Below, one piece after another: positions 6,712-64,000 of a stretch of DNA of 64,000 nt (positions are counted from its first letter, which is position 1; every line of letters starts with the position of its first letter). Below the pieces are notes generated by a model. That model ran no database searches and was not told the origin of the DNA. It saw nothing but the letters and a program-made list of their open reading frames with translations. Made by a program: the position numbers and the translations under genes. Source of the DNA: Panorpa germanica (lineage: Eukaryota > Arthropoda > Insecta > Mecoptera > Panorpidae); the NCBI GenBank assembly GCA_963678705.1, contig OY783221.1, positions 9,176,001 to 9,240,000 on the forward strand, read 5' to 3'.

Positions 6712-6915
6712 ATCCATAATGTTTTTATTTTGGTCGCGGTGATGCGCTGTTGGCAGTGGCTGCTGTGTGCGTTGTTGTGGGGGGCACAGGGGCTCCAAGG
6801 TACAGTACAAGGTGCCGATACACGTCTTGATTCCTCCATAATAACGCCACAAGAAGCACCACCCACAGAACCATGCGAATCTAGAACTCTAAATAAAGTT
6901 CCGCGACCACCTGAG
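6712..6915 (+). CDS. Receptor exon 1: start codon and signal peptide
   Basis: The acceptor TTTCAG ends at 6711 and the donor is GAG|GTAAGT after 6915. ATG at 6742 opens a typical signal peptide ([20 protein letters not shown]) followed by a Ser/Thr/Pro-rich linker, 58 residues in all, ending in phase 0. The start is chosen because it gives the hydrophobic leader. A short upstream reading frame at 6719-6742 precedes it. Confidence 0.85.
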
Positions 6916-9900
6916 GTAAGTGACTTTTCACTATATATCCAAATTAAGAATTGCTATTTATGCTAAAATTTATTTACTGGCTAATCTAACAACCAGTGAG
7001 CTATTTTAATTAAGTGTTTGATTCACAGTGAAATTTGGATTTCTGTCACATATTTTTTTGCAACTTTGACCTATGCGCAGCACCTTCTGTAACAAGGAAG
7101 GTCAAGCAAACATGCGATTACCTATTTATGTATCTTTAAGGTATGTCCGTGCAAAATCTCACCTGAAATCAAACGCTTAATTAAAATGGGTCGGTTAAAT
7201 AACGCCTTGTTGTTTAACACAGACAATGACACTTGGCCCTTAAGACCCTGATATACTTGACTAATCTTCTCCATTTCTTTGAGGACATAGCAAACCCAGT
7301 GCCATTACAAGATTGTTTATGATACATGTATAGTATTACTAAGCAAATATGTTTTTCTCTTTTGTATATAGTGGGCGCGCCCCGTCCAAGAAACTACTAT
7401 TACAATAGCTCGGACTTTGGCAAATCAAGGAGCCCGTGCCAATACTTCATCTGCGGGCATATTAGCAAGGGAAGCGTTGCAAGAACATAAGAGAACACAT
7501 GACAGTGAGCTTGATAGTGGAGTTCTTGCAGTAGCACTTGCTTTACCTCAGCTCCAAGTCGCCATCTTGTTGTTTCGTGGCAGTAATCAGGTAACTGCAA
7601 CATCCATTTAAGAAATTCTAGTTCATGTCATGACAATTCACTAACTATAATGTGTTATTGTTATAGTTAGACTATCAAGTGAATAGTTCAGGGGCGGGAC
7701 AATATTGGCGACAATTAGGAGCTGCTTGGAATAGAACTGTGAATGCTTTAAGTGCAGATACTAGCACAACTGCAGAATGGGGTGCACCATTTTTAGATTG
7801 TGTTACTTTAAGTGGACGATGGGTGCAGCCATATTCTGTTGCCATTACCAACAAACAACTGAAGTAAGTAAACAGTTAAGAAAAGTAAATTATCGTAACT
7901 GTGGCCCTGTTCCTGAATCTTGCGAACTATTGTAGTGATCGAACAGATTTACATGAGTGAAATATTTTATGAATCACTTTTAAAAGTATTTCTGAACTAT
8001 AATAATAATTAATAATAAATTCAGGAATAGTACAGGTTTCACTCATGTAAATCACATCTGTTCGATCACGATCATTGTTCGCAAGACTAAGGAATACGGG
8101 TCCTGATTCGTATTTCGTATTTGTATTTCGTAACAAATTGCACTTTTATAAATTAAAATGTTTTTAAAGTTTGGCTATTGTTTCCCAAATATGTGATTAT
8201 CATTATATGTTAATTTCAAATTCCCTACATATTTGGATCCACCGTTCTCAAACAACGACTTCTGAGTCTGGCCCGCGGACTCTGTTAAATAAAACTAGGA
8301 AATGTAATCCTGTTCAAAGAATGCAACATGCATGCATTCACAAACCAATACAATGGGCTTGTGTCCTCATTTTTTAGTGGTCGATTTTTCAATTGTTGAT
8401 TGAAATTAATGTTATTAAATGTGTATTGGCGTGTCTATTTTATTAAATATCTAAATGTTGACGGAGATATAACAATTAAAAGTTTGAATTGTAGTTTAGC
8501 GCTAGGAATGGTCGGCCATATTTTTATGACGTGAAATGCATTTTAACGTCAGTTATTTGTTGAGTAGGTCAGTGCTGTGATAATGTTCTGTAGCTGTTGG
8601 TAGTCAAATAATCAAGTCAAGTCAAAGAATAATAAGTTTTTATTTTATTTAACCCTGCTAAGGCAGACATAATATTGAAATTTGATTGTTCCTTGAAATA
8701 GCTGTAAATAATATTTGATATTTTGATATATAAATACATATAGCAGAGATTTATGAGCTGTAAGGTTGGTCACCTTAAACAAGGATTGTGATGTCACATG
8801 CACTTGGAATGTGTACAACGTTGAATCCCTTTAATAATTAAAGAGACAAAATGACTTTTTTAATTGTTAATATCTCTTAACATATAAGGAGTTATTAAAA
8901 AATAATTGAACATTTGAGGTTCTAGTAACCCACTTTATCAATATATAGTACACTTTAATAGAACTTAAGACATAAGACACAAGCCCATTATAATGCTATT
9001 GAAACTTGTCATGACTATTATCTCTTCAACAAAAAATTATATTTAGAGAAATGAATTTAGGTCAGTTTAAAAGTTTTCAAAATGTTTATATCAAGTGAAA
9101 CACGAAACTTTTTGACAAGTGACTTCAAAAACACACGCATATCTTTGTCACACAACTATATCTATCCTTTTTAGACCTTGTGAATTTAAAAAAGACCGAT
9201 ATAATCACAAATGTGTCAATGTGTATTCGTTTGATATTCTAACTTTTTTTTGATCTTTAAAAAATATGATTTGTCAATTCCTCAAATGCTTGGAAGCAAA
9301 AAACGGTCGCAATAGGCTTAGTCTGAAGAAATTCATAGCCTGATTTAATTAATTTTGCAGTTACAATTAGGTATATGGTAGCCATCCCAGTAAACATTTT
9401 GGAGTCACTTTGGCATCATATTGGAGATGCGTATGATTTTTTTGTCATGAAAGAGTTAATTTATAGTTCAGTTTCTCACAATCGTTCATCTGAAATGTCT
9501 GTTTTATCGGCTACATATGACGGAACCACTCCACCTGTCGGAATACAAATGAAGATAAAGTTGATACGGACTATAATTGAATTGAAATAGTGATAGAAAC
9601 GTCACAGAAAGGAACACTTCACCAAATGTTTACTGGGTTATTAATTATATAATATTTTCTTTCTCAATCTGGCCCGCTGAGTACTTTCAATACATCTATG
9701 TGGCTTATGAACACGAAAGTTTGAGAACCTCTGATTTGGATGATTTTATTTTACAGAATTGAAATAGTACTGACATCGTATTCAGCAATTGTTGCTTTCA
9801 ATTCCGTTGTTAAACAATCAAATTTATATTTTGTAATATGAATATTCCCTGCGTGCTAATTATGTAGATCACTTTGATCATTTAATTTAATTTTAATGAA

Positions 9901-12900
9901 TGTATCAGACCAAATAATTATATCTGAATAACAGATATATGATATCTCTAAATTTCCAATATTCGAATTAACACTTGATTCCATCCCCCTTCCCACATTC
10001 ATCCTTCCATAAAACACCACATTTTGTTTGTTCCTACTTCCCACTTTTCAGTCATTTGGGATTCTAATTAAATTAATGATTGGTTTCAGAGCTGTAGCCG
10101 CCATATTTATAGCCGCTGATTTGGATCAGTGTGAAATCCCATTAGGAGATATTTTTGGAGGGCCTGATAGGTGCGATCCCGAAACAACTGAAGTAAGTAC
10201 GAGTATAATACATCACAGCAACTTGTACACATTTAGTACAACATTAAGCATTTAACCAACCCATTTCCATTCATCTTGTTGAAAGGGAGAGAGGGAGAGG
10301 ATCTGTCATCAGTTTCTCATGAGATGTGTTTATGTTTTAGTGTGTACCAGATGCGGGGTGGGGACCGAATCGAGGTCGGTATCGTTGCGTGTGTCGAGAT
10401 GGGTACTTTAAACCTGGTGAACCTCCTACATGGAATGGATTCTCTGGGGAACTTGTTGAAAACGACCCCATTGGCGATCACAGGTAGGAATATTTGCTGA
10501 TTAATAGTAATTAAATATAGAAATTTATAGTACATACAAATTAGAAAAAATATTTCTCTAAATCTTTTAACTAAAAATAATATTTCTTAAAAGAACAAAA
10601 TGAAAATATTTAAGCTATCCTAAATGGGCTTCTGTCCTCATTTTTAGTGGTCGATTTTTCAATTGTTGTTTGAAATTGATGTTAATAAATGTGTATTGGC
10701 GTGTTTATTTTATTAAATATCTAAATATTGACGGAGATATAGCAATTAAAAGTTTGAATTGTAGTTTTAGCGCTAGAGATGGTCAGCCATATTTTTATGA
10801 CGTGAAATGCATTTTAACGCTGTTTCAAGAATCAGGTTACCTCGAATATAAATATAAACACAAGCATTTTCCATTATTTTTCCTTTTTATAGTTGTGAAA
10901 TAGAGTGCACTTGCGGTGAAATTCACGCTATGATATGTACTTGATACACCACCCACCCCTATTTATACAGCAGATCAACCGAACAGTAAATTGCAGTGTT
11001 TTCGTAATTTAATTATTTTAACTCGTACTTTGGTTTACCACTGCTGCATTAACTACGTTTTCAGAGTCTAGCTTTACAGTCAATATTTGATATAACTGCA
11101 ATGCATATAGGTACAATTAATCTTTTGGGGGAAGATTAATACAAAAAAAAGACAAGTAGTAATTTAAACATTGAACTTTTATTTGCACTTGTAATAATAC
11201 ACGTAAGCTTTGAAGTTAAACTAATTAGATGTGTGTTCGGTATAGTTGAACAACACAACTACTACGTTGATTATTATATTGAGACTGAGCTCCTGAGCAA
11301 TGTGACCATGCGTTTATATAGTATTATTTGTCATTTGATGACCTATAAGCAAATGGTTACTATGCAGGTGACAATGGTACGATGGTACGACTTGTTGTTG
11401 TCAATAGGTAATATGAGTAATATTAGTCTTATCTTAAGGTGATTAAATTATGCGAGTAATATTAGACTCGTCTGGGTATTTATGATATATATGATATATA
11501 TATTGATGTTATACATAAGAAATTAACTGTACACTACAAACACACGTTGGGGGGTCTTTTATCTGCCAGATGCGAGGAACCTTTTTATTCTTAAAAGAAA
11601 ATACATTGAATACGTTGTTAACGTACCATGGCTTATACTGGTCCAAATGTATGTAAATTGAATTTTACTTATTTTTTTAGATTTTTGCAACATAAAAGCC
11701 TTTATCGACACAGTAGGAGAAAGCATTGATGTTTTACACTGACTGCTGTGTCGTCGGCTTTACTCCTTCTTGTAACAAATCATATTTCTTTCAAATAAGG
11801 ATACACTATCTTGTTATTTTTTAAAATACATTGTATTAATATTAGAAGGATTAAACTATCCAGCGTTGGAAGCGTGTGAATCTTACTCGCAGTAATGGAT
11901 GGTGTGGCAATTGTATATTTTCCCACTGCAAAACAAAATTATTAATTATAGATAACGTTAACATAAGAAAATACATGGAATGGTGCAATAAATACTATAG
12001 TACATACCGTCTCATACTTATGTATTCCATGCTGTGGCTTGAAAATAATATTTAAAATATCTTTCCTGTCTGTTTGTTGACTTAAGACATCGATTGTTTT
12101 AAGCAGAAATTGATATACGTTGAAATCAGCTAAGGCAGCTACGCTAGTTTCCAGTAGCTATAAACAAAAATATTATGGTATTGAAAAACATTTTCTTCAA
12201 CCTTTCCATCTGATGATTATTAAAACTTGAAGTCATATACTAATAATCAGTAGATTTGGAGTTAATCTCTTCACTTGTTCTGTTTAGCAAATAAAGTTGT
12301 TAATAGGTATATTTAAATTTTGTTACTTACTTTTAATGATTTACAATGCTCGATCAATATCAGCGCAAATGTGTCAATATGGGTCCTGCAGTGTTTGAAT
12401 TTAACAGTTTCCAAAGTGGCGCATGTACTTAAAATTCTCATACATTGACTGTTAAAAAGATCCTTGCCAAATTGAATTGTATTTAATTTTGGCAGCCTAA
12501 CAATATATTCCATTCCTTGTTCGTTGAGATTGAACGTCTTAATCAAATTCAATTCTTCTATTTTCAGACAACGTTGTGATATCACTTGCAATATGTTGTT
12601 TATGTTTGTATTCTCATTAGTACATAAAGAAAAAGTTTTCAATTTGTCTAATTCTCCTAGTGCTTCAAAATGCATCGCTTCATTATTCATAATTAGTGAT
12701 AGGTGGTGCAAGTTAGGAGCCACTTGTACTAAATTTGTGACAAAATTAGCATCATATTGTTGTTCATCGTCTGTGTTGTAAAAAGGTCGTCGAAGTGTGA
12801 AGGTAGTTAGATCCAATCTTTCCAACCGCGTTAGTAAATTGGTTTGACTAAATTTTACATTTGTTGAAAGGTTAAGTGAATTCAAGGACAATGGCAAATA

Positions 12901-15900
12901 TTGGAACATTGCACCTCTTTCTATACCTTCTGATGACAAAATCGTAAAATCAACCAGACCTGGATTGTTTTCGAATAATGTGCGCAATATGAAATCATTT
13001 GGATGATCATACCTTACATGCAGTGATGTCAAGTTTCTAAATTTGCTTAATTGTTCCATAACTTCAAAATTAATTGGGAAGTCTAGCAAATGAAATCTTT
13101 TCAAGTTCCACTTTTTCATGGCTTGTACTAGATTAACTGTATTAAATTCACTCAACCGAAGAATTAAAACCTCAAGAGATCTTGGTAATTTTAGGAAACA
13201 AGATCCTTTGTTATCTGAAGATTCTCCAGTGCATGTTAGATACAGTTCCTTAAGTCTTGGAATGTTTTTAAATGCTTCTCCTAGACCAGAGTTGTATAAT
13301 ATTTCACATTCAAGAGAAAGTGACCTTAGAAAATGAAATTTGCTCAACTTAGTAATGTAATGATTGTATAGACGAGATCCTGTTATATTCAGAACTTTTA
13401 TTCGTGGATTAAGACTTTCAATTATTTGTAAAATGTTATAAAATTTAAGTCCAAATCTTTTTTTGGTTAAGGTGAAAGTTTTTAATTTTATGCACCTTTT
13501 TAATACTCTGCATAGAGCAGAGGGGCGTTCATATTCTGTTTCATCAACATTAATCACGTGATGGGTGTTCCAATGGTTACTAACTGCTTCATGCTGTTCG
13601 GGAAAACAATACCCGAAGTTGATGATGTCAATGTCATCTAAATTCTTCAGTATCTGCGCCGCAGCATACGTGTTTATATCCTTCATCGACTTGGCGACTG
13701 TAAAATAGAAACAAATATATTAATAACTTTTCCATTAACCTAATAAAAATTAATCTAATAGTATTTTCCGCCGTCTTATAAATTATTTTATTTGCATTTA
13801 TTTCCTGTGCGGATGTAGAATTGCTGTGTTCATCAACCATCTATATTTTTTTATGAAAGTTGTAACTTTGAAGCTGTTTATACATATACAGACTTTTATC
13901 AAAAAACTATGCTATTCAAAAATACATTAAAACTTAGATTTTGATACAGATCTAAAAATCTAACCTCTAAAAATGTATAAAAATATTATTTATTTACAAA
14001 GCAAGGATATATTTATCACAGCTGTTCGTACGATACAAATCACTTTGAATAAATAATGATAATAATGAACCTTTTTCAATAACAATAACAATAAAAATAT
14101 ACAAATAACATTAATTCTTAAATAAAAATAAATTCTAACCTAAAATTAAACTGTTTAAATTATTTGCCTGTTAAATGTCGAATTATTATTCATCTTTTCT
14201 AATTATATAATATTGGTATATAATATATGTTAAACATGAGTTTAATTACATTTATGAAAACACATGTCATACTAAATTACGATTAAATAAAATTCAGGTT
14301 AGAATTAATATAACTTACCTCGTTTCATCTTTTAAATCTCGATAAATGTGTTTTAAAATCTACTATATACAGTTGCTTCTAACCACTTCTAACACTCAAC
14401 ATCACTCAAAGTAATTCAAAACTGAAATAATAAATTTTCCAAGTGTAGTCACTAGACCAAATTTTCTAACTTGTTAATCAGTTAACTTCTGGTTTAACTT
14501 TCAAAATTGTTCAAAACAGAGAAAAAAATTATCAGTAGATTTTATCAGTAGCTTTCGTAAATTTTTGTCAATGTCTACATCTGGCAATACTGTTACTTTA
14601 ACTACAATTGAAACATACCCAGCGTATTTGATACATATAGCAAATTTTTGAATTTTTTTTAGTATAAATTTTTTATTTTCTTTGTAAATGGCAAGTATTT
14701 AAGTAGGTAAAGGGTAGGTTCAATCCCATTATAAAATAGTTTATACCTGGTTAGCTTAGTTACCCGATACCTGGTGTTAGGGATTGTCAAAATATTTTTG
14801 AAATTATTTTTAGACTTTTGCCAACACCCGCCATAACAAATAATTAAATAAAAACAGCATTTTTAGCACCTTTTCAACAGTCCCAGGTAAACCCGTATTG
14901 TATTCGCAAGTTACCAAACCTAATAATAAGTTCAATAATCATTTAATTATTTGGTCAATGGTCATGTATAATATTTGGTCAAATTCCACATTCCGTGTAA
15001 GTATGTGTAGTAAACATTTGGTGAAGCACTCCCTTTTTGTGACGTTTCTATCACTATTTCACTTCAATTATAGTTCGCTTCAACTTTATCTTCATTTGTA
15101 TTCCGACAGGTGGAGTGGTTCCGTCATCTGTAGCCGATAAAACAGACATTTCATATGAACGATTGTGAGAAACTGAACTATAAATGAACTCTTTCATGAC
15201 AAAAAAAATCATACGCATCTCCAATATGATGTCAAAGTGACTCCAAAATGATTACTGTGTATTCTAAAAACCTAAAATCAAATGAATAAAAAAGACTTCC
15301 CAGTAAACAATTTGGTGAAGTGTTCTATTTAGTGACGTTTCTATCCCTATTTCACTTCAATTAACGCATTAACTTTATCTTCATTTGTATTCAAACAGGT
15401 GGAGTAATTTCGCTATTTGTAGCCCATAAAGTAGACATTTTATATGAAAGACTGTGAGAAACTGAACTGTAAATAAACTCTTTCATGACAAAAAAATCAT
15501 GACGCATCTTCAATATGATACAAAGTGACTCCAAAATGATTAGTGGGTTCCTAACATTTTGTACTTCTAATGTGCAAAGGAATATATTTAATTTTTAAAA
15601 AGCAGTAAAATCGGTCACAAAACTTTATGTAATAGGTAAAATCGGTTAATGGCCCAGTCATTTAAGCTTAAATTAGGTAAGAATCTCGGAATTCGAGATA
15701 CCCAGCTGTAAGTCTGTAAATACTTGTATATTGACACCCTAAAAGTTGTCTCAAAACCTACATATGGTAGGGTGTGCGCAACTATTAAATTTCAAGGTCA
15801 AAGGTCACAAAAATCGGTTTTTTGCGCTTTTTTTTGTAAATATCTCATTTCCTATGGGTTTTTTGCTATTTTTATTTATTATCAATATTGTAGAATACAA

Positions 15901-18900
15901 AATTCTCTACAAATTTTGTTTAAAAAATTTTTATATCGTTGCGTGTGTCGAGATGGGTACTTTAAACCTGGTGAACCTCCTACATGGAATGGATTCTCTG
16001 GGGAACTTGTTGAAAACGACCCCATTGGCGATCACAGGTAGGAATATTTGCTGATTAATAGTAATTAAATATAGAAATTTATAGTACATACAAATTAGAA
16101 AAAATATTTCTCTTTTAACTAAAAATAATATTTCTTAAAAAAACAAAATGAAAATATTTAAGCTATCCTAAATTATAATTGAAAAGGAGATCTCCAATCC
16201 TTATACTTCAATTATTAAAATGTATAATTCACTTTGCTTTGGTTTATTAAGTCATGTTATTTTCTTTACAATACTTTATTTTACCGGAAACATTTTTCGC
16301 CTAATAAGAAATTAAAAAACATAGAATTCTTATAAGATACTTTAGATTTACATTATTTTATTACCCGCAAGAAAATACTATTTAGGAACAATTCGTTTAG
16401 AAATAAGTGTGTTTAGTATCACATACCAAAACACATTTAAATAAAATTTCCTATAATAATAATTTAATTATTTATCATTTTCATGTATTCGTTATTACAC
16501 TAATTTTAACAAAGTAAAAAAAAATCAAAAGTGTTAAAAATAATAATTTTTTTGTATGAAGGTCCCGCAGTTTGTATCGAGCCCCACGTTTTTTTGGGTT
16601 TGGATCTTAGGGAAATGTTAATCTTAATGGGCTTGTGTCCTCATTGTTTAGTGGTTGATTTTTCAATTGTTGATTGAAATTGATGTTAATAAATGTGTAT
16701 TGGGGTTTCTATCTTATTAAATATCTAAATGTTGACGGACATATAGCAATTAAAAATTTGAATTGTAATTTTAGCGCTACAAATGGTCGGCCATATTTGT
16801 ATGACGTGAAATGCATTTTAACGTCAGTTATTTGTTGAGTAGGTCAGTAGTGTGGTAATGTTTTGTAGCTGTTGGTAGTCGAAATAATCAAGTTAACTCA
16901 AATAATAATAAGTTTTTATTTTATTTAACCCTGCTAAGGTAGACATAATATTGGAATTTTATTATTCCTTGAAATATATAAATACATATAGCAGAGATTT
17001 ATGAGCTGTAATGTTGGCAGCGATTGTGATGTCACATGCATTTGGAATATGTACAACGTTGAAACCCTTTAATAATTAAAGAGACAAAATGACTTTTTTA
17101 ATTGTTAATATCTCTTAACATATAAGGAGTTATTAATAAATAATTGAACATTTGAGGTTCTAGTAACCCACTTTATCAATATATAGTACACTTTTATAGA
17201 AATTAAGACATAGGACACAAGCCTATTGTACAATTTATCAATATCAGCTCCTCACTTAGTATGGGTACTTTCTCCGGGCGGGCAATTCATGGAGGCTTCA
17301 AATTCATACATTTGTATTTATTTTTGGAGAAATGACTCTTTTTTTAGTTCTCACGGATTGTCAAGAACAAATAACCTACCCTGTTCATATTTCAAAAATT
17401 TCCAAGACACCGATTCTGAAAGCGGCACTTGGCCCCAGTGTCAAGTTTTTGCACCGGTTCAAAAAAATCGATCGCGTACTTTGTAAAAGAATAAACTATG
17501 CACTTCACCCCTAAACCGTGCAAAATTATTTTTAAACAAATAAAGTTTACGGTTTATTTAATATTTATACATACTTTCCACATTACTGTTTTCCTTCTGA
17601 GGAAATAAAGGTATAATAATATGAAGAGAATACTGAGAGATGAATTTCAAACGAACCTTTCATATGCACTTTATATTTTTCTTATAAATTTTTATGCTGT
17701 TTCAAGAATCAGTTTTCCTCGAATATAAATATAAACACAAGTATTTTCCATTATTTTTCCTTTTTGGAGTTGTGAAATAGAGTGCACTTGCGGTGAAATT
17801 CACGCTATGATATGTACTTGATACACCACCCACCCCTATTTATACAGCAGATCAACCGAACAGTAAATTGCAGTGTTTTCGTAATTTAATTATTTTAACT
17901 CGTACTTTGGTTTACCACTGCTGCATTAACTACGTTTTCAGAGTCTAGCTTTACAGTCAATATTTGATATAACTGCAATGCATATAGGTACACCACAAAT
18001 ACACGTTGGGGGGTGTTTCATCTGCCAGATGCGAGTAACCTTTTTATTCTTAAAAGAAAGTACTTTAATTAAAATAGAATACATTGAATACGTTGTTAAC
18101 GTATCATGGCTTATACTGGTGCAAATGTATGTAAATTGAATTTTACTTATTTTTTTAGATTTTTGCAACATGAAAACCTTTAACGACACAGTAGGAGAAA
18201 GCATTGATGCTTGACACTGACTGCTGTGTCGTCGGCTTTACTCCTTCTTGTAACAAATCATATTTCTTTCAAATAAGGATACACTATCTTGTTATTGTTT
18301 AGAATACATTTAATTAATATTAGAAGGATCAAACTATCCAGCGTTGGAAGCCTGTGAATCTTACTCGCAGTAATGGATGGTGTGGCAATTGTATTCTTTC
18401 CCACTGCAAAACAAAATTAATAATTATAGATAACGTTAACATAAGTAAATACATGGAATGGCGCAATAAATACTATAGTACATACCGTCTCATACTTATG
18501 GAATACATGCTGTGGCTTGAAAATAATATTTAAAATATCTTTCCTGTCTGTTTGTTGACTTAAGATATCGATTGTTTTAAGCAGAAATTGATATACGTTG
18601 AAATCAGCTAAGGCAGCTACGCTAGTTTCCAGTAGCTATAAACAAAAATATTGTGGTATTGAAAAACTGATCTGATGATTATTAAAACTTGAAGTCATAT
18701 ACTAATAATCAGTAGATTGGGAGTTAATCTCTTCACTCTTTCTGTTTAGTAAATAAAGTTATTAATACGTATATTTAAATTTTGTTACTTACTTTTAATG
18801 ATTTACAATGCTCGATCAATATCAGCGCAAATGTGTCAATATGGGTCCTGCAGTGTTTAAATTTAACAGTTTCCAAAGTGGCGCATGTACTTAAAATTCT

Positions 18901-21900
18901 CATACATTGACTGTTAAAAAGATCCTTGCCAAATTGAATTGTATTTAATTTTGGCAGCCTAACAATATATTCCATTCCTTGTTCGTTGAGATTGAACGTC
19001 TTAATCAAATTCAATTCTTCTATTTTCAGACAACGTTGTGATATCACTTGCAATATGTTGTTTATGTTTGTATTCTCATTAGTACATAAAGAAAAAGTTT
19101 TCAATTTGTCTAATTCTCCTAGTGCTTCAAAATGCATCGCTTCATTATTCATAATTAGTGATAGGTGGTGCAAGTTAGGAGCCACTTGTACTAAATTTGT
19201 GACAAAATTAGCATCATATTGTTGTTCATCTTCTGTGTTGTAAAAAGGTCGTCGAAGTGTGAAGGTAGTTAGATCCAATCTTTCCAACCGCGTTAGTAAA
19301 TTGGTTTGACTAAATTTTACATTTGTTGAAAGGTTAAGTGAATTCAAGGACAATGGCAAATATTGGAACATTGCACCTCTTTCTATACCTTCTGATGACA
19401 AAATCGTAAAATCAACCAGACCTGGATTGTTTTCGAATAATGTGCGCAATATGAAATCATTTGGATGATCATACCTTACATGCAGTGATGTCAAGTTTCT
19501 AAATTTGCTTAATTGTTCCATAACTTCAAAATTAATTGGGAAGTCTAGCAAATGAAATCTTTTCAAGTTCCACTTTTTCATGGCTTGTACTAGATTAACT
19601 GTATTAAATTCACTCAACCGAAGAATTAAAACCTCAAGAGATCTTGGTAATTTTAGGAAACAAGATCCTTTGTTATCTGAAGATTCTCCAGTGCATGTTA
19701 GATACAGTTCCTTAAGTCTTGGAATGTTTTTAAATGCTTCTCCTAGACCAGAGTTGTATAATATTTCACATTCAAGAGAAAGTGACCTTAGAAAATGAAA
19801 TTTGCTCAACTTAGTAATGTAATGATTGTATAGACGAGATCCTGTTATATTCAGAACTTTTATTCGTGGATTAAGACTTTCAATTATTTGTAAAATGTTA
19901 TAAAATTTAAGTCCAAATCTTTTTTTGGTTAAGGTGAAAGTTTTTAATTTTATGCACCTTTTTAATACTCTGCATAGAGCAGAGGGGCGTTCATATTCTG
20001 TTTCATCAACATTAATCACGTGATGGGTGTTCCAATGGTTACTAACTGCTTCATGCTGTTCGGGAAAACAATACCCGAAGTTGATGATGTCAATGTCATC
20101 TAAATTCTTCAGTATCTGCGCCGCAGCATACGTGTTTATATCCTTCATCGACTTGGCGACTGTAAAATAGAAACAAATATATTAATAACTTTTCCATTAA
20201 CCTAATAAAAATTAATCTAATAGTATTTTCCGCCGTCTTATAAATTATTTTATTTGCATTTATTTCCTGTGCGGATGTAGAATTGCTGTGTTCATCAACC
20301 ATCTATATTTTTTTATGAAAGTTGTAACTTTGAAGCTGTTTATACATATACAGACTTTTATCAAAAAACTATGCTATTCAAAAATACATTAAAACTTAGA
20401 TTTTGATACAGATCTAAAAATCTAACCTCTAAAAATGTATAAAAATATTATTTATTTACAAAGCAAGGATATATTTATCACAGCTGTTCGTACGATACAA
20501 ATCACTTTGAATAAATAATGATAATAATGAACCTTTTTCAATAACAATAACAATAAAAATATACAAATAACATTAATTCTTAAATAAAAATAAATTCTAA
20601 CCTAAAATTAAACTGTTTAAATTATTTGCCTGTTAAATGTCGAATTATTATTCATCTTTTCTAATTATATAATATTGGTATATAATATATGTTAAACATG
20701 AGTTTAATTACATTTATGAAAACACATGTCATACTAAATTACGATTAAATAAAATTCAGGTTAGAATTAATATAACTTACCTCGTTTCATCTTTTAAATC
20801 TCGATAAATGTGTTTTAAAATCTACTATATACAGTTGCTTCTAACCACTTCTAACACTCAACATCACTCAAAGTAATTCAAAACTGAAATAATAAATTTT
20901 CCAAGTGTAGTCACTAGACCAAATTTTCTAACTTGTTATTCAGTTAACTTCTGCTTTAACTTTCAAAATTGTTCAAAACAGAGAAAAGAATTATCAGTAG
21001 ATTTTATCAGTAGCTTTCGTAAATTATTGTCAATCTCTACATCTGGCAATACTGTTACTTTAACTACAAACGAAACATACCTAGCGTATTTGATACATAT
21101 AGCAAATTTTTGAATTTTTTTAGTATAATTTTTTTTATTTTCTTTGTAAATGGCAAGTATTTAAGTAGGTAAAGGGTAGGTTCAATCCCATTATAAAAAT
21201 AGTTTATACCTGGTTAGCTTAGTTACCCGATACCTGGTGTTAGGGATTGTCAAAATATTTTTGAAATTATTTTTAGACTTTTGCCAACACCCGCCATAAC
21301 AAATAATTAAATAAAAACAGCATTTTTTAGCACCTTTTCAACAGTCCCAGGCAAACCCGTATAAAGGTAAAATTGTCCAAAATATGTATTTTTGAATTCG
21401 CAAGTTACCAAACCTAATAATAAGTTCAATAATCATTTAATTATTTGGTCAATGGTCATGTATAATATTTGGTCAAATACTGTATTCCGTGTAAATATGT
21501 GTAGTAAACATTTGGTGAAGCACTCCCTTTTTGTGACGTTGCTATCACTATTTCACTTCAATTATAGTTCGCTACAACTTTATCTTCATTTGTATTCCGA
21601 CAGGTGGAGTGGTTCCGTCATCTGTAGCCGATAAAACAGACACTTCATATGAACGATTGTGAGAAACTGAACTATAAATGAACTCTTTCATGACAAAAAA
21701 AATCATACGCATCTCCAATATGATGTCAAAGTGACTCCAAAATGATTACTGGGTATTCTAAAAACCTAAAATCAAATGAATAAAAAAGACTTCCCAGTAA
21801 ACAATTTGGTGAAGTGTCCTATTTAGTGACGTTTCTATCCCTATTTCACTTCAATTAACGCATTAACTTTATCGTCATTTGTATTCAGACAGGTAGAGAA

Positions 21901-24900
21901 TTTTCGCTATTTGTAGCCCATAAAGTAGACATTTTATATGAAAGACTGTGAGAAACTGAACTGTAAATAAACTCTTTCATGACAAAAAAATCATGACGCA
22001 TCTTCAATATGATACAAAGTGACTCCAAAATGATTAGTGGGTTCCTAACATTTTGTACTTCTAATGTGCAAAGGAATATATTTAATTTTTAAAAAGCAGT
22101 AAAATCGGTCACAAAACTTTATGTAATAGGTAAAATCGGTTAATGGCCCAGTCATTAAGCTTAAATTAGGTAAGAATCTCGGAATTCGAGATACCCAGCT
22201 GTAAGTCTGTAAATACTTGTATATTGACGCCCTAAAAGTTGTCTCAAAACCTACATATGGTAGGGTGTGCGCAACTATTAAATTTCAAGGTCAAAGGTCA
22301 CAAAAATCGGTTTTTTGCGCTTTTTTTTGTAAATATCTCATTTCCTATGGGTTTTTTGCTATTTTTATTTATTATCAATATTGTAGAATACAAAATTCTC
22401 TACAAATTTTGTTTAAAAAATTTTTATATCGTTGCGTGTGTCGAGATGGGTACTTTAAACCTGGTGAACCTCCTACATGGAATGGATTCTCTGGGGAACT
22501 TGTTGAAAACGACCCCATTGGCGATCACAGGTAGGAATATTTGCTGATTAATAGTAATTAAATATAGAAATTTATAGTACATACAAATTAGAAAAATATT
22601 TCTCTTTTAACTAAAAATAATATTTCTTAAAAAAACAAAATGAAAATATTTAAGCTATCCTAAATTATAATTGAAAAGGAGATCTCCAATCCTTATACTT
22701 CAATTATTAAAATGTATAATTCACTTTGCTTTGGTTTATTAAGTCATGATATTTTCTTTACAATACTTTATTTTGCCGGAAACATTTTTCGCCTAATAAT
22801 AAATTAAAAAACATAGAATTCTTATAAGATACTTTAGATTTACATTATTTTATTACCCGCAAGAAAATACTATTTAGGAACAATTCGTTTAGAAATAAGT
22901 TTGTTTAGTATCACATACCAAAACACATTTAAATAAAATTTCCTATAATAATAATTTAATTATTTATCATTTTCATGTATTCGTTATTACACTAATTTTA
23001 ACAAAGTAAAAAAAATCAAAAATGTTAAAAATAATCATTTTTTTGTATGAAGGTCCCGCAGTTTGTATCGAGCCCCACGTTTTTTTGGGTTTGAATCTTA
23101 GGGAAATGTTAATCTTAATGGGCTTGTGTCCTCATTTTTTAGTGGTTGATTTTTCAATTGTTGATTGAAATTGATGTTAATAAATGTGTATTAGCGTATC
23201 TATTTTATTAAATATCTAAATGTTGACGGACATATAGCAATTAAAAATTTGAATTGTAGTTTTAGCGCTACAAATGGTCGGCCATATTTGTATGACGTGA
23301 AATGCATTTTAACGTCAGTTATTTGTTGAGTAGGTCAGTGCTGTGGTAATGTTCTGTAGCTGTTGGTAGTGAAATAATCAAGTCAAGTCAAAGAATAATA
23401 AGTTTTTATTTTATTTAACCCTGCTAAGGTAGACATAATATTGGAATTTTATTATTCCTTGAAATATATAAATACATATAGCAGAGATTTATGAGCTGTA
23501 ATGTTGGCAGCGATTGTGATGTCACATGCATTTGGAATATGTACAACGTTGAATCCCTTTAATAATTAAAGAGACAAAATGACTTTTTTAATTGTTAATA
23601 TCTCTTAACATATAAGGAGTTATTAAAAAATAATTGAACATTTGAGGTTCTAGTAACCCACTGTATCAATATATAGTACAGTTTTATAGAAATTAAGACA
23701 TAGGACACAAGCCTATTGTACAATTTATCAATATCAGCTCCTCACTTAGTATGGGTACTTTCTCCGGGCGGGCAATTCATGGAGGCTTCAAATTCATACA
23801 TTTGTATTTATTTTTGGAGAAATGACTCTTTTTTTGGTTCTCACGGATTGTCAAGAACAAATAACCTACCCTGTTCATATTTCAAAAATTTCCAGTATTG
23901 AAGTGTCAAGTTTTTGCATCGGTTCAAAAAAATCGTAGATCGCGTACTTTGTAAAAGAATAAACTATGCACTTCACCCCTAAACCGTGCAAAATTATTTT
24001 TAAACAAATAAAGTTTACGGTTTATTTAATATTTATACATACTTTCCACATTACTGTTTTCCTTCTGAGGAAATAAAGGTATGATAATATAAAGAGAATA
24101 CTGAGAGATGAATTTCAAACGAACCTTTCATATGCACTTTATATTTTTCTTATAAATTTTTATGCTGTTTCAAGAATCAGTTTTTCTCGAATATAAATAT
24201 AAACACAAGCATTTTCCATTATTTTTCTTTTTGGAGTTGTGAAATAGAGTGCACTTGCGGTGAAATTCACGCTATGATATGTACTTGATACACCACCCAC
24301 CCCTATTTATACAGCAGATCAACCGAACAGTAAATTGCAGTGTTTTCGTAATTTAATTATTTTAACTCGTACTTTGGTTTACCACTGCTGCATTAACTAC
24401 GTTTTCAGAGTCTAGCTTTACAGTCAATATTTGATATAACTGCAATGCATATAGGTACACCACAAACACACGTTGGGGGTGTTTCATCTGCCAGATGCGA
24501 GGAACCTTTTTATTCTTAAAAGAAAGTGCTTACTTTAATTAAAATAAAATACATTGAATACGTTGTTAACGTACCATGGCTTATACTGGTCCAAATGTAT
24601 GTAAATTGAATTTTACTTATTTTTTTAGATTTTTGCAACATGAAAACCTTTAACGACACAGTAGGAGAAAGCATTGATGCTTCACACTGACTGCTGTGTC
24701 GTCGGCTTTACTCCTTCTTGTAACAAATCATATTTCTTTCAAATAAGGATACACTATCTTGTTATTTTTTAGAATACATTTAATTAATATTAGAAGAATC
24801 AAACTATCCAGCGTTGGAAGCCTGTGAATCTTACTCGCAGTAATGGATGGTGTGGCAATTGTATTCTTTCCCACTGCAAAACAAAATTAATAATTATAGA

Positions 24901-27900
24901 TAACGTTAACATAAGTAAATACATGGAATGGCGCAATAAATACTATAGTACATACCGTCTCATACTTATGGAATACATGCTGTGGCTTGAAAATAATATT
25001 TAAAATATCTTTCCTGTCTGTTTGTTGACTTAAGATATCGATTGTTTTAAGCAGAAATTGATCTACGTTGAAATCAGCTAAGGCAGCTACGCTAGTTTCC
25101 AGTAGCTATAAACAAAAATATTGTGGTATTGAAAAACTGATCTGATGATTATTAAAACTTGAAGTCATATACTAATAATCAGTAGATTGGGAGTTAATCT
25201 CTTCACTCTTTCTGTTTAGTAAATAAAGTTATTAATACGTATATTTAAATTTTGTTACTTACTTTTAATGATTTACAATGCTCGATCAATATCAGCGCAA
25301 ATGTGTCAATATGGGTCCTGCAGTGTTTAAATTTAACAGTTTCCAAAGTGGCGCATGTACTTAAAATTCTCATACATTGACTGTTAAAAAGATCCTTGCC
25401 AAATTGAATTGTATTTAATTTTGGCAGCCTAACAATATATTCCATTCCTTGTTCGTTGAGATTGAACGTCTTAATCAAATTCAATTCTTCTATTTTCAGA
25501 CAACGTTGTGATATCACTTGCAATATGTTGTTTATGTTTGTATTCTCATTAGTGCATAAAGAAAAAGTTTTCAATTTGTCTAATTCTCCTAGTGCTTCAA
25601 AATGCATCGCTTCATTATTCATAATTAGTGATAGGTGGTGCAAGTTAGGAGCCACTTGTACTAAATTTGTGACAAAATTAGCATCATATTGTTGTTCATC
25701 TTCTGTGTTGTAAAAAGGTCGTCGAAGTGTGAAGGTAGTTAGATCCAATCTTTTCAACCGCGTTAGTAAATTGGTTTGGCTAAATTTTACATTTGTTGAA
25801 AGGTTAAGTGAATTCAAGGACAATGGCAAATATTGGAACATTGCACCTCTTTCTATACCTTCTGATGACAAAATCGTAAAATCAACCAGACCTGGATTGT
25901 TTTCGAATAATGTGCGCAATATGAAATCATTTGGATGATCATACCTTACATGCAGTGATGTCAAGTTTCTAAATTTGCTTAATTGTTCCATAACTTCAAA
26001 ATTAATTGGGAAGTCTAGCAAATGAAATCTTTTCAAGTTCCACTTTTTCATGGCTTGTACTAGATTAACTGTATTAAATTCACTCAACCGAAGAATTAAA
26101 ACCTCAAGAGATCTTGGTAATTTTAGGAAACAAGATCCTTTGTTATTTGAAGGTCCTCCAGTGCATGTTAGATACAGTTCCTTAAGTCTTGGAATGTTTT
26201 TAAATGCTTCTCCTAGACCAGAGTTGTATAATATTTCACATTCAAGAGAAAGTGACCTTAGAAAATGAAATTTGCTCAACTTAGTAATGTAATGAATGTA
26301 TAGACAAGATCCTGTTATATTCAGAACTTTTATTCGTGGATTAAGACTTTCAATTATTTGTAAAATGTTATAAAATTTAAGTCCAAATCTTTTTTTGGTT
26401 AAGGTGAAAGTTTTTAATTTTATGCACCTTTTTAATACTTTGCATAGAGCAGAGGGGCGTTCATATTCTGTTTCATCAACATTAATCACGTGATGGGTGT
26501 TCCAATGGTTACTAACTGCTTCATGCTGTTCGGGAAAACAATACCCGAAGTTGATGATGTCAATGTCATCTAAATTCTTCAGTATCTGCGACGCAGCATA
26601 CGTGTTTATATCCTTCATCGACTTGGCGACTGTAAAATAGAAACAAATATATTAATAACTTTTCCATTAACCTAATAAAAATTAATCTAATAGTATTTTC
26701 GGCCGTCTTATAAATTATTTTATTTGCATTTATTTCCTGTGCGGATGTAGAATTGCTGTGTTCATCAACCATCTATATTTTTTTATGAAAGTTGTAACTT
26801 TGAAGCTGTTTATACATATACAGACTTTTATCAAAAAACTAGGTAATTATTGGATGCGACTATACACTTTTGTTTTTAGAAAAGGCGGTTTTTTTATACC
26901 AAAACCGCCTTTTCTTATAACAAAAAAAAATTTCTCACTCTAAATACTTAATCTTACATGTTTCTAATTTAGTAATTATATATAAGTTACATGTATTTAA
27001 AGATTGTAGAATGTTTCTCATTCTAAATACCTAATTTTACTTTTCATAGAACATTTGGTTTGAATCTAAATAAGCCAGTATTAAGCAAGAAATCTGTCAA
27101 TTGATACACATAACAGTGGTGACATAACCTCAATTTTGAAATTTCAACTTTAACCCTCAATATCTCCTATTTATTAATTAAAAGTGGTAAAATAATTATT
27201 ACGTAGTGATTTTGACATGTTTTGAGAATACAATAAGCATAATAAAACATATAAAAATGCAGTAGTTTTTTTACAAAGTGAAAAACAAAAGTGTATAGTC
27301 GCATCCAATAATTACCAAAAATATTTATTATTTACAAAGCAAGGATATATTTATCCCATGCATTTGACATTACTTTAATAACAGCTGTTCGTACCATACA
27401 AATCACTTTGAATAAATATATTTAGTAATTGTTTTACATAATATACCTTTTTCAATAACAATAACAATAAAAATATACAAATAACATTAATTCTTAAATA
27501 AAAATAAATTCTAACCTAAAAGTAAACTGTTTAAATTATTTACCTGTTAAATGTCTAACGAATTATTATTCATCTTTTCTAATTATATAATATTGGTATA
27601 TAATATATGTTGAACATGAGTTTAATTACATTTATGAAAACACATGTCATACTAAATTACGATTAAATAAAATTCAGGTTAGAATTAATATAACTTACCT
27701 CGTTTCATCTTTTAAATCTCGATAAATGTGTTTTAAAATCTACTATATACAGTTGCTTCTAACCACTTCTAACACTCAACATCACTCAAAGTAATTCAAA
27801 ACTGAAATAATAAATTTTCCAAGTGTAGTCACTAGACCAAATTTTCTAACTTGTTAATCAGTTAACTTCTGGTTTAACTTTCAAAATTGTTCAAAACAGA

Positions 27901-30900
27901 GAAAAAAATTATCAGTAGATTTTATCAGTAGCTTTCGTAAATTTTTGTCAATCTCTACATCTGGCAATACTGTTACTTTAACTACAAATGAAACATACCT
28001 AGCGTATTTGATACATATAGCAAATTTTTGAATTTTTTTTAGTATAATTTTTTTTAAATTGTATTTAAGTAGGTAAAGGGTAGGTTCAATCCCATTATAA
28101 AAATAGTTTATACCTGGTCAGCTTAGTTACCCGATACCTGGTGTTAGGGATTGTCAAAATATTTTTGAAATTATTTTTCGACTTTTGCCAACACCTTTTG
28201 CCAATAATGAAATAAAAACAACATTTTTTTGACACTTTTTCAGTCCCAGGTAAACCCGTATAAAGGTAAAATTGTCCAAAATATGTATTTTTGTATCCGC
28301 AAGTTACCAAACCTAATAATAAGTTTAATAATCATTTAGTTATTTTCTATTAAATATGTATAATATTTGGTCAAATACTGTATTCCGTGTAAATAGGTAC
28401 CAGCTTTAATTTATTGCATTATGGAGTCTCTTTGACATCATATTGGAAATGCGTAAGATTTTTTTGTCATGAAAGAGTTCATTTATAGTTCAGTTTCTCA
28501 CAATCGTTCATATGAAATGTCTGTTTTATCGGCTACAGATGACGGAACCACTCCACCTGTCGGAATACAAATGAAGATAAAGTTGATGCGAACTATAATT
28601 GAAGTGAAATAGTGATGGAAACTTCACAAAACAAGACACTTCACCAAATTGCAGTTATTTAGGAATCTGTTTTTAATTTTATTTATGATTTCTTGGGCAT
28701 CCTAGGCACGTAGCCGTATCGCACATAATAATGTTCTGTTTTTTTAACTTTATATTCCGATCACGCCATTGTACTTATGAATGGGCACACATTAATCAAT
28801 TAAATAGAGGCATTGAAAGATTTAAGTTAATTATTATACAAAATACAATCGACTGGGATAATTTCTGTAACCAAGTAGAAGCAGTTTTATTAGTAAACCA
28901 AAATCAGTCCATGGCTACGCTTGAAAATAAGTATAGTTATTTAATTGAGTCAATTGAATCTGCAGCTAAAATTATTGCAAACAATAAAATCTCAAAATAT
29001 CCCCAAATTCTTGGTGGGATGATGAATGTAAAGAGCCTGTGAAAACAGAAAAAAAGCCTATAGAAGATACCACCGAAATAGTTTTGAAACAAATAAAGTA
29101 GCCTTAAAAAAATAGAATTTGAAACGACCAAGTTACTAAAGTTCAAGAAAAGACAAGCTTGAAGAAACATTGCCCAAGAGGTTATCTTTGTTATATAAAG
29201 GAAAAAAGAATCCTATTTGAAATATTCATATTTTAACCACCAAATAATGATTTAAATACATTATCGTTTTCGCTATATATAATATACTCGTATACGAATA
29301 TATATTTATTTATGTACTATATATGCAAGTCAGACAGTACAAAACAAAAGCAGTTGGATTCATTACAGACCAGAACAATAGAAACTAAATCATAAATGTA
29401 CATTCAATTTGATTGAAACTGATTTCATAACAATAGTCTCCGGTATTTCACTCCAGCTAAACAACAGGAGAATCAGGGTACATTCACACTGCAACAAACT
29501 ACTTTGACGTAGACTTTTTCTGTATTGTGTATTCGAGTTGTTTTGTATTTGTATATTTTATCGTGAGATGAAGTTTCTACTTTGTTTCTACTATCAATAC
29601 ACCACTGTTGTGATATAATCTTCAGTTCATACTTCAAAATTCTTAACCCAGGACAACACTCTACATTAACTTAGGTCTTGTAATTACTCTACTGTCTTAT
29701 TTGTTCAAGATTTATATCTCATGTTACAAACACACTGATACAAAAATTTAATATTTAACTACCCAGTAAACATTTTGGAGTAAATTCTACTTAATTTCTA
29801 TTACGTATCATGAATTTTTTGTCTGGAACGTGTTCGTTTTCTATTCAGTCGTTCAAAGGAAAGGTCCTTTTTATGAGCTACAGACATCGCAACGACGGTT
29901 CACTGCTGAATTAAAAGCGGAGTAGGTTTATGATTTATGACCGGATAATAAAAATATACCCATGTGGGAAAGAAACAGAAATACTTAATGAATGATGTTG
30001 GAAAAAGAAAGAATATTATTATGAAAAACTAACACAAAATCTGTGACAGGTAGAGAACTTGTAAAGCGTTAGAATAGAATTGTACGAGTGACTCGAACTT
30101 CACCAAATAGGACACTTCACCAAATTGTTTACTGGGTATACAATATATATCAGTATAGTTTTTTCAAATCAATTGTTTTTTCTTTAAAGAAAAACAAATT
30201 CCATCCAACCAAGAATTTCACCCTAATCGTAACTCTAGGATCCAGATCATCCCCCATCATTATTTTTAAAGTTATTCATTTTCACTTCCATATTGGATGC
30301 ACGAACTACCCTCCACTCCAGCCGCAACCCTTGAAGAGTGGGGGTGAATGGGGATGTGTATTTCACATTTACGTTTACAACGGATTCAAATTCAGCTTTA
30401 GTTTCTACTGATACATCAGTTCGTTCTACTCAATCTTGTTCAGTTGTTGTCAGGTTTAACATACGACTATTGTTAACCATCAACGAAATAACAGCACAGA
30501 GTATTTGAGAAATTTAACACATGTATCCTGCATAATGCTAGAGCGGGACCTGGACCAGGACTGACACCAGGATAACCCCCTTTACTGAAACCCAATACAT
30601 GTCAAACTCGATTCTAAATAAATTTTAGAACAAGGTTAGTTTGGATAATTAAATTTCGTGTGGTAGTTTTTTTAATATCTGTTTGAATGCATCAACATTG
30701 ATCAGTTTTTAGAACGAAAAGAATATATATGTATATTTATAATTTATATTTACAATTTATACGTTAAAATGCAACTGTTAATAAGCTAGTTATACAATTA
30801 TTATGTAATTACTTAAAAAATATATAAATTGCGATTATTACTTGAAAATTTATATATTTTTTTATATTTTTCTGATTTCGGACCTGGGGCCCTATTCCTG

Positions 30901-33900
30901 AGTCTTGCGAGCAATGATCGTGATCGAACAGATATAATTTATATAAGTGAAACATTTTACGAATCACTTCTAAAAGAATATTTCTGAACTATAATAATAA
31001 TTAATAATAAAATTCAGGAACAGTACAGGACTCTTTTAAAAGTGATTCGTAAAATGTTTCACTCATATATAAGACTCAGGAATAGGGCCCAGGTACAAAA
31101 TCAGCAAAATATTAAAAACAAATAAATTTTCAAGTAATAATCGCTATTTATTTATTATTGAAACCACAGGTTTTGAAAAACCCTAGCTATAAACTACACA
31201 GTTTTATTTTTAAATTTTAAACGTTTTTACGACTTTAAAAGCGTCTAGTATTTTTTTTCAATAACACAGATGCTTGGTACTTATGGTTTATTAGATTAAA
31301 TCTGATCACATTTGACAAACCCCAAGAAATTAAACAATTAACATACCAACTTAAATTGGTGCACCGTTGGCATTTTTATACTGTCAAAAATTGTATTTTT
31401 ATAAAAATAGAAGTTAAAAATAAAGAATCACACTTTGTCTAAGACATGTATGGCTCAACATGTTCTAAATGGTGTCAACTATCATCCCCTTAAGGCTTTG
31501 CACACTGGTTACAAACACCCTGTATTTGTTTTAATAAACACCAAGGTTTATGTTTTTCCGCTAACTTGGAAAAATGGTCCAACTTCCTGGCGCAACAGCG
31601 CGCTTGTTAATGAATTTAGAGATAAGTTTTAAAGTTTTCGCAATGGCTTATAAATTGGTAAACTTAGTGTTGCACTGCTGGCCTCAATATGTAGAGTCTT
31701 TCAACAAGAGCGGTCATTTTTAATCGCAAGATATCTGTGATATTTGGCAGGTATTGTGTTTCATAAGTAACCTCAGAGTTTATAATTTGGATTAAATTCA
31801 AAATATCACCACTTTTCACGGAAATATTGCGTTTTTGTATTGATTATTTCTATATATCACATGGGCAAAAAAAATTTGTTTCATCAAGACAACGCACCGT
31901 GTCACAAGTCAATCAAAACAATGGCAAGGCTACATGAATTGAACTTCGAATTGCTCCCACATCCACCGTATTCGCCAGATTTGGCTCCCAGCGACTACTG
32001 CCTGTTCGCAGACCTGAAAAAAATGCTCGCCGGTAAGAAATTTCGCACGAATGAAGAGGTTATCGCTGAAACTGAGGCCTATTTTGAGGCAAAAGATAAA
32101 TCGTTCTACAAAAGTGGTATTGAAATGTTAGAGCGGCGCTGGAATGATTGCGTTGCTCTTGATGGAGATTACGTTGATGAATAAAGCTAATTTTGAACCA
32201 AAAAAACTGTGTTTTCTTTGTTAGGCCCGGGACTTTTCAGCCAATATGTTATATACCCTTTGAGCGGTAAATTTTACATAAGTACTGTTTTGGTATATGT
32301 ATTAATTTACGTAATAATTCATCTAGCGTAGTAGCTGTCATAACATTTGTTATGTAATAATTAATTTGTTTATTATGTGCTTGCATTGGTTGTCTCTGCT
32401 GCACTGCACTGCATATCCCATTCAAACTTGTTCTCTAACCACATAAAATTAATTATAAACATAAATTGCAAATGCATCCACCCGAATATTATATATATTG
32501 CACCTCCTCTACTCTTGTTAATAATTATTTTTGATAATGATAAAACTCTTTTATAATAACACGTATATAAGCACAACAAAATATATACTACATATAATAC
32601 ATAATAAAAGTTTTTCCATTGTATAAATTGAAAAATGTAAATAATGAAAAATATTATATCAAAACTCTAAAGTATACAATATAGAAAAATTGTTAGAGGT
32701 AAATAAAATTGAAGTTTTATTTTATATTTTGTTGTGCAAATATAGCAAAACATACTCCAGTCGTATGAGTGAGTATGGTAAAGAAACTAGTGTTGTGTAT
32801 ATGCTCGTAAACATCGATTCTTTATATCGACAACTTATTATCTATTTATTATTTCTTGTATATGGACATATATATGTAAGGCACGCACTGGATATCAGAT
32901 TATGTTTGTTTACAGCACAATTTGTAAAGTTCAAACAAACATCTTTTTGTTTATCTTTTATTTAGTAATTAAGCTCACTCCCTAAAGACAGTTACGTATA
33001 TTTAAGTTTAATATTACATAAAAATGTTAACTGTTCACATAGCATTTTTGTATTAATATCAGGGCTTGGGCATGTGAGAGATGCAGTTGTATCTGACATC
33101 ATTATAAATGTAGATCCAAACTGTAATTTAATTCCACTGTAGACTATTTTAATGTAGAACGAGAGCGCCAAATCATTTCGCATCTTCTATAAACTTATAT
33201 CAGTGCAGGATTTTTAAGATCTTTTAAATTTATTGAATGGCAATGTTCTATAATTCTTTTAAACCTGGGTAAATAACAACCCAGTAAACATTTTGGAGTC
33301 ACTTTGACATCATATTTGAAGATGCGCCATTATTTTTTTGTCATAAAAGAGTTCATTTATAGTTCAGTTTCTCACATTTTTTCATATAAAATGTCTACTT
33401 TATCGGCTACAGAAGGCGAAATTACTCCACCTGTTAGAATACAAATGAAGATAAAGTTGATGCGAACTATAATTGAAGTGAAATAGTGATAGAAACGTCA
33501 CTAAATGGGGCACTTCACCAAATTGTTTACTGGGAAAACGTGGCAATAGGTAAAAAGTATACATACAATAATACATTAATTTACGTTTAGTGTTTTAATT
33601 GTTATATCCTATTTTTTATATTACATATTTTACTTTAATAAAACTAAAAGTTTAAAAACATTATAAAGATATCTATTTTTATATACTGGAAGAGATAGCT
33701 GTTTATAATTGGAAATAGTTTGATCAAAATCTATGGCCTTAGCAATTTTGCATATTTATAAGTCTCAGTATAATCATAATTACAGCATATCTCATCATAG
33801 TCTCAGCATAATCACAAAATATCGATTTGTAATTGTACTTATCACAAATCATCGATGTTTTCGATATATCTATGGAACACACTAATCCGGATAAAGTAAC

Positions 33901-62582: not shown

Positions 62583-62888
62583 ACTAGAGTTACATTTTCT
62601 GAGTTTGGTACTCATGTACATCTTATTAAATTTTATAAAACTAAATAAATAAATAAAATTCTCGTAGAAAAATTTATTATTACATTACATTAAAATTAAA
62701 AGTACAAAAATACATACAATATAAAAAATTCTCTTATATATAAAAATAAATCAGTCTTATCGATTGACTAGATATTTTGTACTTTAGTTTCTTTTTGGTT
62801 GAGCGCAGTCCGGTTATTAGTTATATTTATTAATTTATGTACATTATTATACATTTTGTCATTATGAAACATCGTCAGACAAAAAAAG

Positions 62889-64000
62889 CTACATAGAGCA
62901 GTATAAGTTGGTAACTATTAGTCTGAGGATCGGGTGCCTCCGCAACAATTCGACCATCTCCATCTGCAAAATAAAATTAATTGTAGATTACATGGTTGGT
63001 CATAGTTCTTAAGGACGTTCCAGCGTGGTATAGTATATTCAGAACTAGGGATGCAATTATACAATTATTTACTTTATTTATTATAAGCTTGGACATGAAA
63101 TATTGAGAATTATAATTATTTTATTCTTTTTATTTATAATAAATAACGGACATAATCTTATTGATTAATCAAAAATCACTTATTCTTTAATTATAAGAGA
63201 GGCTTGTATTTTTTTTAAATATAATAAAAATAAAATCGATAAAAGATAGTTTTTTTTTGGAGTTAGTGTTTTTTTTTTTTTTATATAAATACTCAAAAAG
63301 AATAAATCACAAGTCAGAGCACAAATTCAGAACTTCTCCACACATACTATATACTACTACTAATTTTTTTTAAATTGTTTAAAAAACATTATTCTTTACT
63401 CTCCTAATTTTTATCAAAATTCTATCAAGAGATTTTTTGTGTATAATAGAGAATTGGAGGTGAACCTCAAATTGCTAACTTTGTTATAAATTATCTCGGA
63501 TTCGAACCGGTCAAAAATTCTGAAACTTGGGAATTATTAGTAAATATTACTTTTAGCTTATAAACAAAAATTTAGAAAAAAATCTATCAAACAAGGGTTT
63601 TCACACTTGAATTAACTAAAACATTTCTCCACGTTCGAACGTTAATTAAAAAATGCATATATTTAGGAAAAATAATGCTGGACAGTATAGGTAAAGGAGA
63701 AATAATTGATTAAATTAATTACTGTCGTACGTACCTTTTCATCTATGTCATGATAATTCAATTCCATAGTAATGTTCAAAATATTTTTCCGGTCTGTCTG
63801 TTGATTTAAAATATCGACCATGTTCTCCAGAAATATTAAATCATGAAAATCTTCATCAACGCTAAGTATTTTCAAATTCTGTAAACAAAAACATTTTGGT
63901 AATTAAAAATAGTCAAATTATTCGTTTAATTCTGTAATTCTGTTCTATTCTAATTCTGTAGTCTGTTTTAAAAGTATAGCCTAATTGAAATTGTTAGCCG
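62889..64000 (-). CDS. F-box-like/leucine-rich-repeat protein, paralogue 4 (last two exons; rest beyond the window)
   Basis: Two minus-strand exons: 63878-63735 (48 residues, NLKILSVDEDFHDLIFLENM then VDILNQQTDRKNILNITMEL) and 62963-62889 (24 residues MEMVELLRRHPILRLIVTNL.. and stop TAG). They align with the last two exons of the tandem copies: LNQQTDRKNILNI against [13 protein letters not shown], and RHPILRL against HHPLLRV. Both introns are phase 0 and the final exon is 75 bases in all four genes. The F-box and main LRR exon would lie to the right of 64000. It is clearly diverged, so it is older than the triplication. Confidence 0.8.
63352..63620. repeat. Dispersed repeat F, copy 2
   Basis: Collinear with 44570-44840 (see shared words there). 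It lies in the intron between the last two exons of paralogue 4. Confidence 0.72.

Follow-up and report, generated by a model that had tools for sequence, protein, structure and literature searches.

An F-box-like leucine-rich-repeat (LRR) gene, nested antisense within a large intron of the gene for a GPR158/179-type receptor, stands in three tandem copies in the Panorpa germanica assembly, and the breakpoint of the duplication falls inside a coding exon of the receptor. The explanation that we prefer, to which we give a probability of a little over three in four, combines an antisense nested LRR gene, tandem duplication with an exon-internal breakpoint, exchange between the units and membership of a large gene family. 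Coordinates refer to the window, i.e. the whole 64,000-nucleotide stretch analysed.

Three LRR gene copies lie antisense in one receptor intron

The host gene, for a GPR158/179-type receptor, has its plus-strand exons in two groups, at 6.7-10.5 kb and 47.4-56.3 kb. The protein used for domain searches was joined by hand from predicted exons, less one exon that could not be placed in the 51.46-52.63 kb interval, and it carries both the GPR158/179 extracellular domain (Pfam GPR158_179_EC, PF22572, 2.9e-14) and the class C seven-helix domain (7tm_3, PF00003, 1.2e-26), with a PDB match to GPR158 at 2.1e-49. The 5′ exons (6742-10483), which contain the GPR158_179_EC match, are at 6742-6915 (5′ end approximate), 7372-7590, 7667-7863, 10090-10192 and 10341-10483. 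The 3′ exons (47446-56263), placed by probe matches and reading, are at 47446-47608, 49650-49718 and 51272-51463, followed by later ones at ~52.63, ~52.80, ~53.72 and ~54.11 kb and by a last recognised exon with a stop near 56,263, where the receptor thus seems to end. The first eight exons join into 420 stop-free codons. A single GPCR intron of ~37 kb had been proposed as the host, and this holds: the plus-strand intron at 10484-47445 measures 36,962 bp, has consensus sites (donor GTAGGA, acceptor GTACAG) and is consistent in phase on both sides. Open frames that by eye resemble the end of a mariner transposase (31786-32184) and part of a non-LTR retrotransposon (37492-37860, minus strand) also lie in it.

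All exons of the three gene copies fall inside this intron, on the strand opposite to the receptor. Each minus-strand gene consists of four exons of 10, 1367, 150 and 75 nt, located at 14328-14319, 13697-12331, 12157-12008 and 11925-11851 in copy 1 (11851-14328), at 20790-20781, 20159-18793, 18635-18486 and 18403-18329 in copy 2 (18329-20790), and at 27708-27699, 26629-25263, 25105-24956 and 24873-24799 in copy 3 (24799-27708). The frame is open in 3/3 copies (533 codons plus stop) with GT/AG at every intron, in agreement with the sequence-only reading of an intact four-exon, 533-residue antisense gene per unit; its splice joins 14319|13697, 12331|12157 and 12008|11925 fit the gene model at the sequence level.

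The tandem units share a breakpoint inside a receptor exon

Self-comparison of the window resolves three head-to-tail units with a common junction, at 10380-15933, 15934-22426 (where the junction sequence was also used) and 22427-28395, the starts being correct to the base as previously placed. Matches of unit length span 3.4-5.5 kb at 97.5-98.1% identity, far exceeding chance, and the same three sites were recovered on contig C18 when the whole assembly was searched. Compared with the other two, unit 1 has two deletions and one insertion; unit 3 bears an insert in intron 1 and lacks the tail that in units 1 and 2 adjoins the junction, its homology stopping at ~28,395. The sole other match in the window to the tail at 15555-15933 is its unit 2 copy. 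Both inner junctions have the same sequence across the 121 bases compared and are therefore copies of one event, which together with the retained introns and flanks bears out the proposal that the amplification was DNA-based; a retrocopy origin is ruled out by the introns.

The breakpoint at 10380 lies within the receptor coding exon 10341-10483, which is complete at that site as judged from splice sites and GPR158 homology. The two further units begin with 104-base pieces of this exon (15934-16037 and 22427-22530, plus strand), both identical to 10380-10483, in which the donor is present and the native acceptor absent; 5′ of both, unrelated sequence takes the place of the exon start and acceptor. 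Among 40 scored matches of 1,116 assembly candidates, the exon piece occurs at these three sites only, and the remaining 37 match a dispersed element that lies farther to the right within the query. This exon-internal breakpoint had been missed by the sequence-only reading. Since the complete exon borders on unit 1 alone, the receptor stays readable, and as the extra pieces lack the native acceptor we infer that receptor splicing can pass over them; they should be removed with the intron, leaving this splicing unharmed. Use of the pieces as alternative receptor exons was rejected, the native acceptor being gone and the one AG near the junction that was checked by hand being out of frame.

Every copy retains its own upstream flank, and the claim that promoter DNA was carried along stands for the nearest ~285 bp. 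Further out, 51 of 59 whole-assembly matches of the query fall only in ~14,613-14,985, and this part of the flank is a dispersed repeat. Within the units, the repeat (14613-14985) lies a short way 5′ of the gene start. Two further repeats were noted. One of ~250 bp, at 9386-9637, 15009-15260, 15302-15554, 28417-28649 and 33277-33534, sits, oppositely oriented, at the tail of unit 1, that of unit 2 and the end of unit 3, near the point where unit 3 homology stops. The other, a dispersed element at 8352-8990, 16626-17227, 23117-23717 and 48473-49076, is common to units 2 and 3 and is found in other parts of the host intron, in the sister array described below and on many other contigs.

The product resembles FBXL proteins in its LRR part

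Copy 1 alone gave no significant match in single-protein scans of Pfam or PDB, and a family profile was therefore built. Motifs of LxxLxL type number 28 in the protein against a shuffle mean of 15.2 (reached in 0/5,000 shuffles), and the strict LxxLxL form occurs 6 times against 1.7 (29/5,000 shuffles). The 20-member profile matches FBXL2 (4.7e-7) and FBXL17 (6.3e-7) through the LRR part, and two Pfam LRR models match 7/20 and 4/20 members (E up to 1), with best values of 1.6e-4 and 1.4e-6. Structure prediction for exon 2 gives an LRR solenoid with moderate confidence (mean pLDDT 66.9), placed C-terminally as in FBXL-like proteins; the best eight Foldseek rows are plant F-box LRR proteins, and a second fold comparison ranks FBXL2 first and ribonuclease inhibitor next, although such comparisons separate FBXL little from other LRR proteins. 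An LRR fold is thus supported by profile, Pfam and structure prediction.

The earlier F-box/LRR label survives for this part, whereas its F-box half is weakly backed. The Pfam F-box model scores below the cut-off in 3/7 N-termini (E 0.035-0.092) and not at all in copy 1, hhalign gives an F-box probability of 50% against six human F-boxes, and the N-terminal region of the predicted model lies mostly below pLDDT 60. We accordingly write of an F-box-like LRR gene, membership of FBXL being unproven, and its product would probably be a degenerate F-box/LRR adaptor. The LRR profile and fold match those of FBXL2 and FBXL17 (PDB 6o60 and 6w66), in comparison with which the F-box and SKP1 contact of the nested gene product are only putative.

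A sister array and a large gene family

Searching the window with the gene revealed a further exon 3 at 63878-63735 (minus strand, 48 codons), which shares 46% identity with copy 1 exon 3 over the part that matches. It is found there because a sister array starts at 62,622; this exon belongs to its first gene. Only the left end (62622-64000, minus strand) falls in the window, and self-comparison of the extended locus follows the array for 20 kb more, to ~84,100 in window coordinates, as four units spaced at 5.66-5.68 kb and ~99% identical. Its genes have the same strand as the nested array and an exon 2 that is 47% identical, and the array is flanked by the apparent receptor end on one side and, from 97.7 kb, by a further tandem set on the other. 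This third set, on the plus strand at 97,700-114,000 in window coordinates and outside the window, holds open frames repeated in three to four copies that are 92-99% identical and by eye resemble a ZP-domain protein.

In the whole assembly (464 Mb, 249 contigs), exon 2 has at least 93 matches, a lower bound on family size because these 93 were scored from only 340 first-look candidates. They are distributed as 84 on contig C2, 7 on C18 and one each on C3 and C213, and 76/93 are stop-free within the match. In a midpoint-rooted tree of 39 of the 93 places (19 of them stop-to-stop frames), the seven C18 genes form one clade with support of 1.0. Between C2 members the median dN/dS is 0.78 (range 0.44-1.39 over 378 non-independent pairs). 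The C2 cluster lies at 15.07-17.38 Mb and 18.46-18.65 Mb, with strands plus in 27/27 (15.07-15.89 Mb), minus in 36/39 (16.12-17.38 Mb) and plus in 9/9 (18.46-18.65 Mb), a layout that looks like two opposed half-clusters. The mitochondrial contig reads tRNAs I-Q-M, then nad2, then W-C-Y and cox1; this order is the common insect arrangement, unlike the lepidopteran one.

The locus thereby brings to light an extensive and fast-changing insect family of F-box-like LRR genes, two sister arrays of which were amplified separately at this site; the sister array and the family had both escaped the sequence-only reading. A bolder and rather doubtful extension is that the locus amplifies this family repeatedly under a persistent drive on copy number, such as an immune-type race or genetic conflict. 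On this view, two sister genes that diverged long ago, one intronic and one 3′ of the receptor, would have been multiplied separately to three and four copies, another branch would have reached 84 matches or more on a different contig, and the nested array would be free to vary as its breakpoint spares receptor splicing.

Probable exchange between the units and tests for selection on the copies

In the well-aligned parts, the three unit pairs differ by 2.3, 3.2 and 1.8% in noncoding and by 0.6, 1.3 and 0.7% in coding sequence. A recent origin, as had been suggested, is tenable only in a relative sense, with noncoding divergence at 1.8-3.2%. The differences are unevenly distributed. Units 1 and 2 share a gap-free identical stretch of 1,707 bp (12770-14476, equivalent to 19232-20938 in unit 2) that covers much of exon 2 and continues through intron 1 and exon 1 into the adjacent upstream DNA; to its left, units 2 and 3 resemble each other more closely. 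Over 3,671 well-aligned columns with 107 variable sites, a run of 22 consecutive variable sites joins units 1 and 2, and 0/10,000 shuffles reach such a run; some of these sites fall in intron 1 where unit 3 aligns poorly, but the 1,707-bp identity of units 1 and 2 is independent of unit 3. The mosaic supports the earlier proposal of gene conversion, or else unequal exchange, as the process that left this mark.

The idea that the copies are maintained by selection, whether for dosage or for diversified function, is one that we find unlikely, even though it accounts for several features of the array. All three frames are open, coding indels are zero in 3/3 pairs as against 13, 18 and 14 noncoding events, which may be read as a weak sign of selection, and dN/dS between the nested and sister arrays is ~0.5 at a dS of 0.8, implying that the gene is constrained over the longer term. 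Between the three copies, however, dN/dS is 1.33, 1.25 and 1.19, and the silent and replacement counts agree with a neutral simulation in 3/3 pairs, omega values of 0.2 and 0.3 being rejected at the 0.05 level in 3/3 and 2/3 pairs, respectively; recent selection for three copies, and with it the dosage suggested before, is therefore not supported. In the neutral runs, moreover, the frame escapes stops in 54, 27 and 51% of cases for the three pairs, and since coding divergence is lower overall, part of the deficit in coding indels may reflect conversion.

We regard it as very unlikely that the copy number is an artefact in which fewer true units, on haplotypes differing by 2-3%, were assembled as three. 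The noncoding divergence of the units (1.8-3.2%) is within the range possible for haplotypes, and a misassembly that copied one real junction would likewise yield two identical junctions, but each unit has insertions and deletions of its own that are hundreds of bases long, and the units show the mosaic pattern. Even such an artefact would require that one or more of the exon-internal junctions be genuine. Least probable is an effect of the array on the receptor through antisense transcription or interference, for which the opposite-strand position of the copies within the intron and the nested-gene interference in human cells described in the accessible part of PMC3192792 might speak, but against which stands the title of PMC8467205, reporting no expression divergence despite interference in mammals.

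Proposed history and relation to known nested genes

Under the preferred explanation of duplication from within the receptor exon followed by exchange, the locus would have started with one LRR gene antisense in a large intron of the GPR158/179-type receptor gene. Tandem duplication of DNA, one end of which fell in receptor exon 10341-10483, would then have given two units, the third arising, we infer, by unequal crossing-over or a second duplication, and conversion or exchange would subsequently have homogenised parts of the units. The receptor stays readable, the extra exon pieces presumably leaving with the intron, and the gene belongs to a large family of fast turnover whose nearest members form the second tandem array 3′ of the apparent receptor end.

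The ingredients, namely an antisense intronic gene, tandem duplication and turnover of a multigene family, are known and ordinary in kind; unusual is the combination at one locus of a host-exon breakpoint that leaves the host readable with two separately amplified sister arrays. The locus offers a natural case in which the amplification of an antisense nested gene had its breakpoint within a coding exon of the host gene and yet left that gene readable, so that the effect of intronic copy number on the host gene is directly testable. The tandem Adh/Adhr gene pair of Drosophila, in an intron of outspread, likewise places tandem genes in a host intron, whereas here there are three near-identical copies together with pieces of the host exon. 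The likeness extends to 2mit, an intronic protein-coding gene transcribed in the opposite direction to its host, Drosophila timeless2, which in the accessible part of the source is apparently a single nested gene (PMC3786989), in contrast to the three tandem copies and host-exon breakpoint described here. The expanded F-box families of Caenorhabditis, as the available portion of PMC8665587 describes them, are similarly large adaptor families with copy number changing by lineage, whereas the family here is an insect LRR family in which the F-box is degenerate or unproven. Also comparable are the LRRTM genes, LRR genes located on the opposite strand within large alpha-catenin introns; according to the accessible text of PMC3933685 these pairs multiplied together with the host gene, whereas in the present array the nested gene multiplied within one intron.
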